Source: a virus
Virus record (IMG/VR): IMGVR_UViG_3300029258_004609
Span: 1 to 20,833 of that record
Length of the DNA: 20,833 nucleotides
Strand: one strand, 5' to 3'
Below the pieces are notes generated by a model. It made no database searches. It saw nothing but the letters and a program-made list of their open reading frames with translations, and was not told where the DNA came from. Shown piece after piece: positions 734-8,744 of the stretch; the first letter of the stretch is position 1, and every line of letters begins with the position of its first letter. A program made the translations under genes and the position numbers.

Positions 734-789
734 AAAGCGCCCACGGGCAGGAGCTTGAGTGCTCTTGTCCGTGGGCGCTTTTTTTTTTT
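734..789. terminator. Bidirectional intrinsic terminator between convergent operons
   Basis: Positions 734-754 and 761-781 form a 21-bp stem (two G-U pairs as + strand RNA) closed by a 6-base loop (TTGAGT). The + strand continues into an unbroken T run at 779-789, ideal for ending the rightward block. Read leftward, the same stem is followed by fewer U residues, so it may also stop the leftward block. It fills nearly all of the 55 bases between the stop at 732 and the opposing stop at 788. Confidence 0.93.
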
Positions 790-1039
790 AGTCGAGCGCC
801 CCGGACTTTTCCAGGCGGGCCTTATAGGCCTCAACACTCTCGCGAACCTTGGCGAGGTCCAGGCTGTTCTGGTCCTCGCTCTCGCTGAAGGTCTCGATAT
901 ACTCGACCTTGTCACGATTAATGTGGACCTGGCCGCCAGAGGCCTTGTTGAAGTGCCCCCAGACCGAATCTCCTTTCCAGGTTCCATGGATTTTTTTGTA
1001 GTGGCCGGACTCAAAGCTGACCAGTATTTCATTTGGCAT
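788..1039 (-). CDS. Small hypothetical protein
   Basis: An 83-aa protein, the last gene of the leftward block. ATG at 1039 is chosen because AAAGGAG sits seven bases upstream. A TTG six bases earlier is less likely. The first half is predicted beta-rich (short alternating segments around HYKKIHGTW and QVHINRDKVEYI), and the last 30 residues look helical and charged. The stop TAA lies inside the T run of the terminator. It overlaps the upstream gene by 11 nt. The family is not recognised. Confidence 0.75.
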   Translation of the reverse strand: MPNEILVSFESGHYKKIHGTWKGDSVWGHFNKASGGQVHINRDKVEYIETFSESEDQNSLDLAKVRESVEAYKARLEKSGALD

Positions 1040-1412
1040 CTGCAATCTCCTTTACATTGTAGTGGATCGGCCCGGGCTCCGCATCCAGTTGCCGCTTGGG
1101 CAGGAGCTTGTGGACCGTGAACTCATAGGTTACGGCATGCGTCGTCACACGAGGTGTAATGAGTATGTCCAGCCACGGCCAGCGCGCCGCCAGCTCCAGC
1201 TTGAAGTGTTCCCACCAGGTATCGGGCACGGTGTATCTCAATGTGGCTGTTTGCGAGTCGAGCTTGTCGGCCCAGACGTACGTGGCTACTCGCAGGAGCA
1301 GCTCACGCGCGTCCTTGTAGGCGACCGCTTCCAGACGCGCATTGGGTATGTGGTCCAGATAGTGATCGCTGATGTACCGGGCCGCGTGTGCGACGTATTG
1401 CTCGCGTTTCAT
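1029..1412 (-). CDS. Hypothetical protein
   Basis: A 127-aa protein starting MKREQYVAHAARYISDHYL. ATG at 1412 is preferred because it overlaps the stop of the upstream gene as ATGA (1409-1412). A GTG 18 bases further upstream is the alternative. An N-terminal helical region is followed by a Trp-rich centre (TWWEHF, RWPWLDI) and a beta-rich C-terminal half (TTHAVTYEFTVHKLL). No catalytic motif, membrane segment or metal-binding cluster is visible. Its place among small genes next to an Acb2-like gene suggests an accessory early function, which is inference only. Confidence 0.75.
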   Translation of the reverse strand: MKREQYVAHAARYISDHYLDHIPNARLEAVAYKDARELLLRVATYVWADKLDSQTATLRYTVPDTWWEHFKLELAARWPWLDILITPRVTTHAVTYEFTVHKLLPKRQLDAEPGPIHYNVKEIADAK

Positions 1413-2125: not shown

Positions 2126-2419
2126 TTAATCTTGCTGGGGCACGCCAGCGGGGTAGCCTGACTTGTACTGGTCCTCAAGTTTCATGTGGTCCAGTTTTTT
2201 GGCCGCCTGGTCCTTGTCATGGCGTGCAATGGCCGCGTTTGCCCACATCACGGCCTCCTCGAGCTTTGTGAATGCCAGCGACTTCTCGCGGCACTCCGGA
2301 CAAAGCATCTCCAGCACCTCCGCCGTCCAGCGGGCGTGCGCCCGGATGTACTCGTACACCTCGGGCTGACCCTGGCGCGGCGGGTGGTACATAAACCTGG
2401 TATCTAGATCCTGTTTCAT
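2126..2419 (-). CDS. Acb2/Tad1 hairpin-domain protein, putative cyclic-nucleotide sponge (anti-CBASS/anti-Thoeris)
   Basis: A 97-aa protein. ATG 2419 is chosen because AGGGAG sits about six bases upstream and the family's typical N-terminus begins here; the open frame continues upstream to 2566 through a hairpin. Residues 44-66 carry the hallmark helix of the Acb2/Tad1 hairpin family: REKSLAFTKLEE followed by AVMWANAAIAR. The upstream part (RFMYHPP at 8-14 and a YxYIR helix) also matches my memory of these proteins. Known members, Acb2 of Pseudomonas phages and T4 Vs.4, assemble into hexamers that trap cyclic di- and trinucleotides and so silence CBASS; the related Tad1 traps Thoeris signals. 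Unusual here is a CPEC pair (40-43) just before the motif, where I recall Pro/Ser-type residues. The small-gene neighbourhood fits an early anti-defence role. Family membership is well supported by motif; the ligand is unknown. Confidence 0.83.
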   Translation of the reverse strand: MKQDLDTRFMYHPPRQGQPEVYEYIRAHARWTAEVLEMLCPECREKSLAFTKLEEAVMWANAAIARHDKDQAAKKLDHMKLEDQYKSGYPAGVPQQD

Positions 2420-2447
2420 AAAGGCTCCCTCTATAAAGTGTGTGTGT

Positions 2448-2510
2448 AAAGAGCGCCCGGACTCGTGCAGGCCGGGATCGGAAAACCTGTGTCGGGCCTG
2501 GGCGCTCTTT
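2448..2510 (-). terminator. Large branched hairpin upstream of the Acb2-like gene (terminator, attenuator or structured leader)
   Basis: An outer perfect 11-bp stem pairs 2448-2458 (AAAGAGCGCCC) with 2500-2510. Inside it AGGCC (2469-2473) pairs with GGCCT (2495-2499) around a loop containing GGAAAACC. On the leftward RNA the stem is followed by only three U and then ACACACAC, so it is not a classic terminator. It lies 28 bases before the Acb2-like start. It may partly end transcription from the polymerase side, protect or process the mRNA, or regulate expression of the anti-defence gene. Confidence 0.5.
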
Positions 2511-2595
2511 GAATGGGAGGCTCCCCAACCTCCCCCAACGCAGAGTGACGCATTGACTTGAAACACCTCGCCCCCGTTGTCTCTGACAGGGGATT

Positions 2596-2913: not shown

Positions 2914-3232
2914 AACGCGTCTCCTTGTATAGTTTGTGGTCCAGGTTGCGCCGTTGGGCCTCCCGGGCAAGCTCCTTGTACGGCTCGAACACCTCGGCAG
3001 GATCAAGCCCGTGCTCCTCGATTTCCATGATCCGATTCTCAATGTCCATCGTGGCAATCTCCCCTGTCACCCACGTGGAGAGTGTGTAGAGCTCCCGGAG
3101 AGTCTGTTCCTCATATACCCGTACCCGTCTATCCAGGAGTGCCAGCGTATTGAGCAGGTGCGTATCGGACATGTCCCGTATTGGGATCCGCCTGCCGTCG
3201 CGAGTTATCCATTCCGGTTTAGTGGTTGCCAT
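2903..3232 (-). CDS. Conserved phage hypothetical protein
   Basis: A 109-aa protein. ATG 3232 has GGGAGG about six bases upstream and overlaps the polymerase stop by 14 nt. The N-terminus (PEWITRDGRRIPIRDMSDTH) resembles a short block found in many uncharacterised phage proteins, a beta hairpin followed by MSDxHL and a helix. The rest is helical and charged, with a possible coiled coil around residues 25-95. The tight overlap with the polymerase gene suggests co-expression with replication. No function can be given. Confidence 0.78.
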   Translation of the reverse strand: MATTKPEWITRDGRRIPIRDMSDTHLLNTLALLDRRVRVYEEQTLRELYTLSTWVTGEIATMDIENRIMEIEEHGLDPAEVFEPYKELAREAQRRNLDHKLYKETRYGA

Positions 3233-5897
3233 AGCGCTCCTCCCATTTTGAAATACTCATTTTATCGCCCCAGGTATACCCGATCTCCGGGTCCACGGGT
3301 GTTGGAACCTCAAGCTGAACCGCGCTCTCCATGGTGAGAACGATCTCGGGCAGGATCTCCAGCACGCGCCGTTCATCAATTTCAAATATCAAATCGTCAT
3401 GGATTTGGAGTATCGGATTACAGGTCCAGCCCCAGTTGCGCCAGCGTTTATAAACGGGTACGAGATTCCCCATAGCGCGCTTCATCACACCGGCCGCGCC
3501 CATCTGAACGGGTGCATTGCAGGCCTCGCGCTCCGCCTCAAGCCGCGTCCACTTGTCGGAGCTGTTCACCCCTGGCGTTTGGCGTATGCGCCCCCACATG
3601 TCGCGGACATACCCGTACCGCCTGGCAAATTGGAGCGTCTCGTGCATCTTGTCCCGTATACCATGATAGACATTGAACCACTCCTTGATGAGATTGTCGC
3701 AGTCCTCCACCGACCAGTCCAGGCCTGCTACCACCAACTGATCCCAGAGACCCTTGCCCGTTATCCCATACAACACACCGAACCCTATCCGCTTGCACGG
3801 GTATCGGTGCTTCATCTTGTCAACCTCGTGCTCCTTCACACCAAATACGCGCATTGCTGTTTGTGTGTGTATGTCGAGGTCGTCCTTGAAGCAGCGCAGC
3901 ATCTCCTCGTCCTTGGCCCAGCACGCAGCTATTCTCATCTCGATCTGTGAGTAATCGCTCGCCGTAAAAACACATCCGGGTGCCGGTATGAATGCGGTCC
4001 GGATCATCTTGCCCTCAAGTGTGCGCGTGGGTATGGCCATTAAATTAGGCGCTGACGTCGCGAGTCTGCCAGTACTTGTTCGGGTCATAGTAATCTTGGC
4101 GTGGACCCGCTGCTCCTTGTCCATCAGAGCAGGTATTTTATTGGCGTACGTGCCATAGAGCTTGTCGTACTGGCGGTATTCCTTTATCAGCTCTATAACA
4201 GGATGCGCCCCCTCAAGCTTTGAGAGCACCTTGTCACCCGTTGCCCATCCTATTTTTGTGGGTTTTGTCGCGCTCCTGTCGAGCTCCAGATCCTCGAACA
4301 GAAACTTGCCCAACTGCATGGGGCTGCCCACGTTCAATCTCTGCGGTCCCGATACGTACTCCTGGACGGCATCATCGGCAGCATCGCGTCTCCAGGCAAA
4401 ATAGGTGGCAAGCTCCGCCATTTTGCCCGGGTCAACGCGGATCCCGGATTCCATCATGTCCACGACCATGGGCAGCGCCGCCATGTCCCAGGCCAGAGGG
4501 TGCTCGAGATCCAGCTCGCGAACCATCCGACGCAGCGGGAAAAATATCCGGCGCGTGGCATCGGCATCCCGGCACGCGTAGAACAGGGCGACCTCCCTGT
4601 CCACCTCGCTCAGGTAACCGGGCTCCATCTCGCCCAGCTCCTGCGCGACCATGGCCTTGCCCGCGTCATCGTCCATTTTCTGCCAGGCATCGTACGGGTC
4701 CTTGCCGTCCGTGAATTCCTTCCACAGGTAGTTGGCGGCCTTCTTGCCGATATTCCTGGGCTGTTTTATACGGGGCTCTCCCTTTTCCCACACGAGCTGG
4801 GGTTCCGGGTCCGGCCATTCCCTGGAGACGACCTTGGCGAGGTACGCCATCGCCTTCCTGTGCGTTGCCGGTGCCACCACACGCAGGTACGACTGCATTC
4901 TCATACCGGCATGTCGCGGCGCGAGATCTTTCAACCCCAGCGGTTCAGTCTGCAGAAGGTAGGCCATGAACATCGTGTCGGTCACATTCCCAGGCACAAT
5001 ACCCATTTTTTCCATCACAGGAAGATCGTGGAGCGCGTTCTGGAGCACGGTCAATACCTCAGGGTGCTTTAGCCTCCGCGCGATCGTCCTGAGGGCTTTG
5101 TGGGCCGTAGCGGGCACACATATGGCATGGCCGGGACCCGTCGAGAGCTGTATCGACCAGGGCTCACCCCCTCGAGCACTCTCTGTATCGACGCCGACGA
5201 TCTTGGCGTCCTTGAGGTACTCAAAAACATGCTCCCAATCCTCTCGCCACATGTAGACCTCGCGGCCGTCGTGCTCATCGACGAGCTCGTGCACGTGCTG
5301 GAACAGCTCTTTGGGGGCAGCCCGGTTGCGCAAATAGGTCCCTAAGGCCTGGAAGTCCTGCTGGATGCGCGCCAGGTTTTGTTGGTTGTGGAAACCTGCA
5401 GCGGGGTGGAGAACAGGGAAAATCGTGCAGCCCCATGCTTGGGAATCGTGAGCCCGGCCGCGAACAGTGTCCATCGACACATTGCCCAGGAAAAACCGTG
5501 TTGCGAACCGGCCGACGGTTACAATGACCTCCGGGTTGATCTCCGCGATCTCCATGACCAGGTGAGGCGTGCACGCCTGGATCTCACCCGGTAGCGGGTC
5601 CCTGTTTTCCGGCGGCCGACACTTTACGATGTTGGTAATGAACCAGTTGTCGCGAGGCTTACCGGCCAGGTACTTCAGGAGACGATCCAGCTCCTGGCCC
5701 GCCTTGCCTATAAAGGGAGCCCCATGCATGTCCTCCTGTTTGCCAGGGGCCTCGCCGACGATCATGCCCATGGGCGTGTAGGTGTAGAGAGCCCCCGATA
5801 AAGGTCGCTTACAGGTAGCGTGGAGCTCGCACTCTTTGCACCGTGTGATGTGGCCTGCGAGGGTTCGCAGATCGTCCAGATCAACTCTCGTCGTCAT
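3219..5897 (-). CDS. Family-4 uracil-DNA glycosylase fused to proofreading family A DNA polymerase
   Basis: 892 aa, starting at ATG 5897 (GGGGAG seven bases upstream). Residues 1-190 form a family-4 [4Fe-4S] uracil-DNA glycosylase: Cys20, Cys23, Cys93 and Cys109 as cluster ligands, GEAPG at 48-52, KCRPPENR from 92, and LHPAAG with His164. Residues 230-460 form a 3'-5' exonuclease with Asp237/Glu239, Asn287/Asp291 and Tyr440/Asp444, so proofreading looks intact. Residues 460-892 are the polymerase: motif A DYSQIE (Asp648), O-helix Arg698-Lys702-Phe706-Tyr710, and motif C IHDD (His833-Asp834-Asp835), where most family members have HDE. There is no 5'-3' exonuclease domain. The enzyme should replicate phage DNA; the glycosylase may remove or sense uracil ahead of synthesis. 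SPO1-type phage polymerases also have an N-terminal glycosylase-like domain (from memory), so the fusion is rare rather than unprecedented. Confidence 0.96.
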   Translation of the reverse strand: MTTRVDLDDLRTLAGHITRCKECELHATCKRPLSGALYTYTPMGMIVGEAPGKQEDMHGAPFIGKAGQELDRLLKYLAGKPRDNWFITNIVKCRPPENRDPLPGEIQACTPHLVMEIAEINPEVIVTVGRFATRFFLGNVSMDTVRGRAHDSQAWGCTIFPVLHPAAGFHNQQNLARIQQDFQALGTYLRNRAAPKELFQHVHELVDEHDGREVYMWREDWEHVFEYLKDAKIVGVDTESARGGEPWSIQLSTGPGHAICVPATAHKALRTIARRLKHPEVLTVLQNALHDLPVMEKMGIVPGNVTDTMFMAYLLQTEPLGLKDLAPRHAGMRMQSYLRVVAPATHRKAMAYLAKVVSREWPDPEPQLVWEKGEPRIKQPRNIGKKAANYLWKEFTDGKDPYDAWQKMDDDAGKAMVAQELGEMEPGYLSEVDREVALFYACRDADATRRIFFPLRRMVRELDLEHPLAWDMAALPMVVDMMESGIRVDPGKMAELATYFAWRRDAADDAVQEYVSGPQRLNVGSPMQLGKFLFEDLELDRSATKPTKIGWATGDKVLSKLEGAHPVIELIKEYRQYDKLYGTYANKIPALMDKEQRVHAKITMTRTSTGRLATSAPNLMAIPTRTLEGKMIRTAFIPAPGCVFTASDYSQIEMRIAACWAKDEEMLRCFKDDLDIHTQTAMRVFGVKEHEVDKMKHRYPCKRIGFGVLYGITGKGLWDQLVVAGLDWSVEDCDNLIKEWFNVYHGIRDKMHETLQFARRYGYVRDMWGRIRQTPGVNSSDKWTRLEAEREACNAPVQMGAAGVMKRAMGNLVPVYKRWRNWGWTCNPILQIHDDLIFEIDERRVLEILPEIVLTMESAVQLEVPTPVDPEIGYTWGDKMSISKWEERYGNH

Positions 5898-8072: not shown

Positions 8073-8744
8073 TCAGGTTGAGGTTGACGTGTAGGTGAAT
8101 GTGGAGCTCGTGCCCAGGTCCAGCTTGTGGAACATGGCATCTCGGCCCTCCTTGTCAGTCCGATATGTGTAGAGCTCCAATAGTGCCATGGCCATTTCAA
8201 GAACCTCGACCTGTTCTGTAAGGTTGAACTTGCGCGTGTGCAGGGCCTTCCGGTCGTTCTCTATCAGGCTCTGGAGAAGATCCACATCCCCTGGAGCGCC
8301 CTCCCACTCGAGACGCTCGCTGACCTCCTCAAGCGCCTCCAGGAGATTGTCCACGTTGTCGAGCTGCTTTTCATTGTCTCTCGCCTGTTTGTCGAGCGCC
8401 TTGATAGAGGCATCAACCAGATCCCGGAACTTGAGAGAGTCAAACGGCGTGTTGCGAACGGTGCTCTGGAAGGCGGTCAACATGGCATCCCGGGCGCGCG
8501 CCTTGATACGGTCCTCCCGCGTCTCTGTGGCCGAGCCCACATTGCCGGTCGTGTCGTACTCGTGCTTGAGCTCCGGGTCGGACAGCGTGGCATAGGCGAC
8601 GCGAACCGTGTTGAATGCGTCCGCGCTCCCGCCCAGATCAGGGTGAGACCGTTTGGCCTGGGCTCTAAAGGCGGCCCGCAACTCCTCGCGCGAGTAAGTC
8701 TGGCCCCGCTTGAGACCCAGGGCCGCGTACAGGTCTGTGTTCAT
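8073..8744 (-). CDS. J-domain (DnaJ-like) co-chaperone protein
   Basis: A 223-aa protein. Residues 1-65 are a J domain: DLYAALGL at the start, helix II ending AKRSHPDLGG with the essential HPD at 34-36, helix III AFNTVRVAYATLSDP, and a final EYDTTG. J domains stimulate the ATPase of Hsp70 (DnaK). There is no Gly/Phe-rich region, zinc finger or DnaJ C-terminal domain. Residues 80-205 are helical, with coiled-coil character (KQLDNVDNLLEALEEVSERL). ATG 8744 overlaps the upstream stop as ATGA (8741-8744), and AAGGA is upstream. It probably recruits host DnaK to a phage process such as replication or assembly. The target is unknown. Confidence 0.9.
   Translation of the reverse strand: MNTDLYAALGLKRGQTYSREELRAAFRAQAKRSHPDLGGSADAFNTVRVAYATLSDPELKHEYDTTGNVGSATETREDRIKARARDAMLTAFQSTVRNTPFDSLKFRDLVDASIKALDKQARDNEKQLDNVDNLLEALEEVSERLEWEGAPGDVDLLQSLIENDRKALHTRKFNLTEQVEVLEMAMALLELYTYRTDKEGRDAMFHKLDLGTSSTFTYTSTST

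Follow-up and report, generated by a model that had tools for sequence, protein, structure and literature searches.

Several small phage proteins built around a helical hairpin are known to bear on anti-phage immunity. T4 Vs.4 (also called Acb2) is a proven cGAMP sponge: its ligand site comprises Y8, H11, K23, R79 and F82, with Y8A and F82A cutting binding, and its hexamer is held through contacts at L29, A66, A73 and A77 (PMC10097602). Mutation of Y8, A66, A73 or A77 harms either binding or hexamer formation (PMC10097602), and in a second study T68M lowered affinity while Y8A was binding-deficient (PMC12657230). One published account describes Acb2 as rare and confined to specific phage groups (PMC11722364).

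Here we describe a 97-residue protein encoded in a 20,833-nt stretch of viral DNA (IMG/VR record IMGVR_UViG_3300029258_004609), referred to below as the window. The protein is an ordinary addition to a catalogued family, of a kind already known and annotated, as is apparent from its PF24729, PHROG_1454 and PDB matches, from the UniProt names of its relatives and from the report of a putative Acb2 in the Microbacterium phage Statler isolate paper (PMC13348362).

A hairpin-family gene

Read from the minus strand, the gene occupies complement(2126..2419) and encodes 97 residues plus a stop codon in an intact frame running from ATG to TAA. A Shine-Dalgarno sequence, AGGGAG, stands 5 nt upstream of the ATG (2425..2430, minus strand); with this good ribosome-binding site, the open reading frame picked out by the sequence-only reading is real. 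A longer in-frame start exists, GTG at 2566, but we favour the ATG at 2419 because it yields the N terminus typical of the family, about 10 residues ahead of Tyr-His-Pro. The motif REKSLAFTKLEE-AVMWANAAIAR at residues 44-66 and the CPEC string at 40-43 are exactly where they had first been placed.

The product is almost certainly a member of the Acb2/Tad1 hairpin family, as had been proposed. Searching the Pfam profile of that family (PF24729) gave a strong match, with 77 bits against a curated cut-off of 27 (E 1.3e-21, profile positions 2-58 of 58), and the best PHROG was PHROG_1454 (E 1.9e-25); both values are far beyond chance. T4 Vs.4 scores 71 bits over the whole of PF24729 in matching register, so that its Y8 aligns with Y11 of the 97-aa protein. 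PHROG_717, the group of Vs.4 and Pseudomonas Acb2, matched at E 0.02 only; the best PHROG is thus not that of Acb2 in the narrow sense. When the PDB was searched with a 50-sequence profile, Acb2 homolog 43 (9ptq) came out at E 1.9e-6, Tad1 at 4e-4 and Vs.4 at 0.1. NCBIfam and PADLOC gave no match for the gene.

The hairpin domain spans residues 11-66 (2222..2389, minus strand), as delimited by the profile range, and consists of antiparallel helices at about 18-39 and 44-66 in the model. An AlphaFold2 monomer, predicted from the 50-sequence alignment, has a mean pLDDT of 81, rising to about 91-98 across residues 21-60, with helices at 3-9, 18-39, 44-66 and 69-86. The two-helix hairpin expected of the family is thus predicted, and in a Foldseek comparison with the PDB Vs.4 came first (probability 0.93-0.95), Tad1 third and Acb2 twelfth, all with weak E-values, as expected for a short hairpin. 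VIA-align superposed the model on Vs.4 with Z 7.0 (63 residues, 3.1 A) and on Acb2 with Z 6.4 (60 residues, 2.4 A). The two-helix hairpin is, however, a common shape, and unrelated helical hairpins reach similar VIA-align scores; the predicted fold therefore agrees with the sequence evidence and adds no proof to it. Modelling a short relative (L002), to learn whether the structural match improves once the tail is gone, was uninformative either way: Tad1 moved to the top Foldseek row with poor scores and Vs.4 was unlisted.

The predicted ligand site

Residue counterparts were anchored on the Pfam register, and columns were counted over 50 sequences, namely the 97-aa protein and 49 relatives. 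Much of what matters in Vs.4 is present: Y8 corresponds to Y11 (Tyr in 50/50), K23 to R26 (Arg in 50/50) and T68 to a conserved T51, while A66, A73 and A77 correspond to A49, A56 and A60, likewise conserved, which form a small-residue helix face. Elsewhere the residue has changed. H11 is replaced by P14, R79 by A62 (Ala in 48/50) and F82 by A65 (Ala in 50/50), from which it follows that the dinucleotide pocket differs from that of Vs.4; the hexamer contact L29 falls on T32, where relatives mostly have Leu or Phe. Pseudomonas Acb2, by alignment, also carries Ala at the F82 place and keeps Arg at the R79 place, which leaves R79 as the one clear loss relative to both proven proteins. Put otherwise, the Y8, K23, T68 and R79 of Vs.4 are matched by the same residues in Pseudomonas Acb2; the subfamily has Y, Arg for K, and T, without the last Arg. 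One helical turn beyond the R79-equivalent, the whole subfamily has a near-invariant Arg66, which may stand in for R79.

On this evidence we consider the 97-aa protein a predicted sponge for an immune cyclic nucleotide, likely hexameric, with a probability of about 0.8; its family further suggests an anti-CBASS or anti-Thoeris activity. Such a small helical-hairpin protein would most likely assemble as a hexamer, like T4 Vs.4, Pseudomonas Acb2 and Tad1, and the hexamer would bind an alarm signal between protomers, either a CBASS di- or trinucleotide or the gcADPR of Thoeris. With the signal soaked up, the effector would stay off, and the infected cell could survive long enough for phage production.

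A sub-case of this explanation, which we rate at somewhat under even odds, is that the sponge has a pocket remodelled for a signal other than cGAMP: a cyclic trinucleotide, gcADPR or an undescribed nucleotide. The prevalent alanine at the pocket-Arg position of Vs.4 and Pseudomonas Acb2, together with Arg66 one turn later, argues for it, as does a subfamily motif nearer to that of Tad1 (SRENACALTHVEEALMWMN) than to that of Vs.4. The classical pocket nevertheless keeps its Y11, R26 and T51, and the weight of the pocket swaps is to be judged on a hexamer model.

Genomic setting and relatives

The hairpin gene is one of a long run of minus-strand genes, among them a helicase, recombination genes and a uracil-DNA-glycosylase (UDG)-exonuclease-polymerase fusion; small genes lacking family matches follow. 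The fusion (3219-5897, minus strand) is an 892-aa protein joining an N-terminal uracil-DNA-glycosylase-like domain to a 3'-5' exonuclease and a family A DNA polymerase, and at 8073-8744 (minus strand) a phage protein has a J-domain (DnaJ) at its N terminus and, C-terminally, a part without any match. Neither the downstream neighbour at 1678-2100 nor the other small neighbours had a convincing match in Pfam, PHROG, NCBIfam or PADLOC, and a viral scan for relatives of the former found none. A further gene, at 788-1045 (minus strand), encodes an 85-aa protein from a family without a name, whose core reads FESGHYK..G.WKGDSVW.H..K..GG..H.NKDKVEYIETF; the family counts 38 loci in IMG/VR and has no match in Pfam, PHROG or INPHARED. 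That this small gene and the hairpin gene travel together is a tentative idea: 5/38 contigs with the 85-aa protein carry a hairpin gene within 8 kb, but only 1/80 hairpin loci has the protein, and the counts are not set against a proper background rate.

The 176 bases upstream of the hairpin gene (2420..2595, minus strand) form a predicted structured intergenic leader: the fold of 2415-2600, computed from this single sequence, has a z of -3.6 against shuffles, and contains a terminator-like hairpin with an 11-bp stem at 2448-2510 and another hairpin covering the ribosome-binding site. Scanning the window for Rfam families and tRNAs gave no match.

In a related contig (L086 in G001), the genes for the helicase, AAA_24 (Sak4-like), ERCC4 nuclease and polymerase have counterparts that are 32-41% identical. 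No PF24729 gene was seen in it, an absence that is not firm, as the contig may be incomplete. Because this contig shows no counterpart despite sharing the polymerase, helicase and recombination genes, the phage-borne hairpin gene looks accessory.

Environmental viruses commonly carry relatives, as do phages of Paenibacillus, Mycobacterium, Gordonia and Streptomyces. IMG/VR holds at least 80 hairpin loci, and INPHARED 179 records at E 1e-5 and 316 at 1e-2; the Vs.4 type, by way of comparison, occurs in 1195 phage records, mainly enterobacterial ones. Bacterial genomes yielded 24 hairpin loci, the stronger ones mostly from Paenibacillus and other Bacilli. Many relatives, structural matches included, are named Acb2/Tad1 hairpin domain-containing protein in UniProt. 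In several Paenibacillus phages, hairpin genes (e.g. KT361655.1, MG727702.1) are labelled phosphomannomutase, an apparent misannotation of a 67-residue protein. Cyanophage S-2L (L084, MW334946.1) has an unannotated member at 3001-3198, which is flanked by two tail genes and scores 69 bits on PF24729. In contig L098 a FESGHYK-type gene sits directly beside the hairpin gene, between terminase and portal, and the relative in L142 (872-1288) carries, N-terminal to its hairpin, a fused domain of about 75 residues without clear family; this fusion gene is next to a FESGHYK-type gene and upstream of the terminase.

Such placements could also be read as signs that the hairpin, as an oligomerisation module, does something other than immunity for the phage, for instance as a regulator or structural accessory, which we hold to be quite unlikely. 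The S-2L and L098 sites and the L142 fusion are in its favour, and our literature search found neither a measured ligand for any PHROG_1454 member nor binding data for the subfamily; sites between structural genes are, however, also usual for accessory genes, and what has been retained includes ligand-site residues, beyond interface residues alone.

The inter-helix turn and the C-terminal tail

The sequence-only reading had singled out the CPEC turn between the helices (C40-P-E-C43; 2291..2302, minus strand) as unusual. Column counts over the 50 sequences uphold this for Cys43 alone: position 43 is Ser in 44/50 and Cys in 2/50, the other instance being a relative with CEDC (L060). Cys40 (43/50) and Pro41 (48/50) are family consensus, although the full CPEC string is unique among the relatives compared. 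Nor are 97 residues the usual size in this subfamily, although the expected size had been supposed. Its members mostly stop within 1-4 residues of the last conserved Arg, whereas here a tail of 31 residues follows Arg66 (residues 67-97; 2129..2221, minus strand). Among 69 tails measured, those of 68 distinct relatives included, it is the longest: most IMG/VR relatives have 1-4 residues and the longest relative 17. AlphaFold2 places the helix at 69-86 within this tail, and the relatives retrieved from viral contigs have no counterpart to the tail. As differences, the loss of the R79-equivalent and the tail tell more than CPEC.

A more speculative extension of the sponge reading, doubtful though not far-fetched, would have the large PHROG_1454 branch use Arg66 instead of the R79 position for an immune nucleotide that the classical Acb2 proteins do not sequester, with the extra C-terminal helix capping or tuning the pocket in this phage. 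A correctly annotated but altered and inactive copy is very improbable: Thr32 in place of Leu or Phe at the L29 contact, the long tail and Cys43 might suggest it, but the frame is intact with a good start, the residues invariant in the 49 aligned relatives are present and the profile score exceeds that of Vs.4.

Comparison with known systems

Taken alone, the protein extends a known anti-defence family in a routine way; what is of use concerns the subfamily as a whole. The same hairpin occurs in Paenibacillus, mycobacterial, Gordonia and Streptomyces phages, in cyanophage S-2L and in numerous viruses from the environment. Should the subfamily indeed bind immune signals, hairpin sponges would be far more widespread than the published account of Acb2 allows (PMC11722364), and the Arg-to-Ala change would make the subfamily's ligand an easily testable question.

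With T4 Vs.4 (7uq2), the top Foldseek match, the 97-aa protein has in common the Pfam profile and register, the Y8, T68, A66, A73 and A77 positions and, conservatively as Arg, K23; Vs.4 differs by about 20 extra residues between the two anchor motifs, by its assignment to PHROG 717 and by R79, F82 and H11, which are not conserved here. Pseudomonas phage Acb2 (8h2j, 8h2x) is a helical hairpin too and, aligned through Vs.4, shares the Y and T ligand-site positions, but its R79-equivalent Arg is absent from the 97-aa protein and it gave no direct match in the PDB profile search. The C-terminal hairpin motif of Tad1 (7uav, 8kbf) aligns with residues 42-62; the N-terminal beta-sheet domain of Tad1 has no counterpart, as the hairpin domain, beginning at residue 11, has no more than about 10 residues ahead of it, and the model is without strands. 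Acb2 homolog 43, of 76 aa, is the best solved relative by profile, shares the PEGREKS..TKLEEA motif and carries Lys at the R79 position. The PHROG_1454/PF24729 proteins of Paenibacillus, Mycobacterium, Gordonia and Streptomyces phages have the same core length and share the motif YHPP...IR...CP.SREKSLA.TKLEEAVMWANAxIAR, and IMG/VR relatives are 41-63% identical to the 97-aa protein. Against these relatives Cys43 and the 31-residue tail are its own peculiarities; the tail is also long in some mycobacteriophage relatives, but with a dissimilar sequence.
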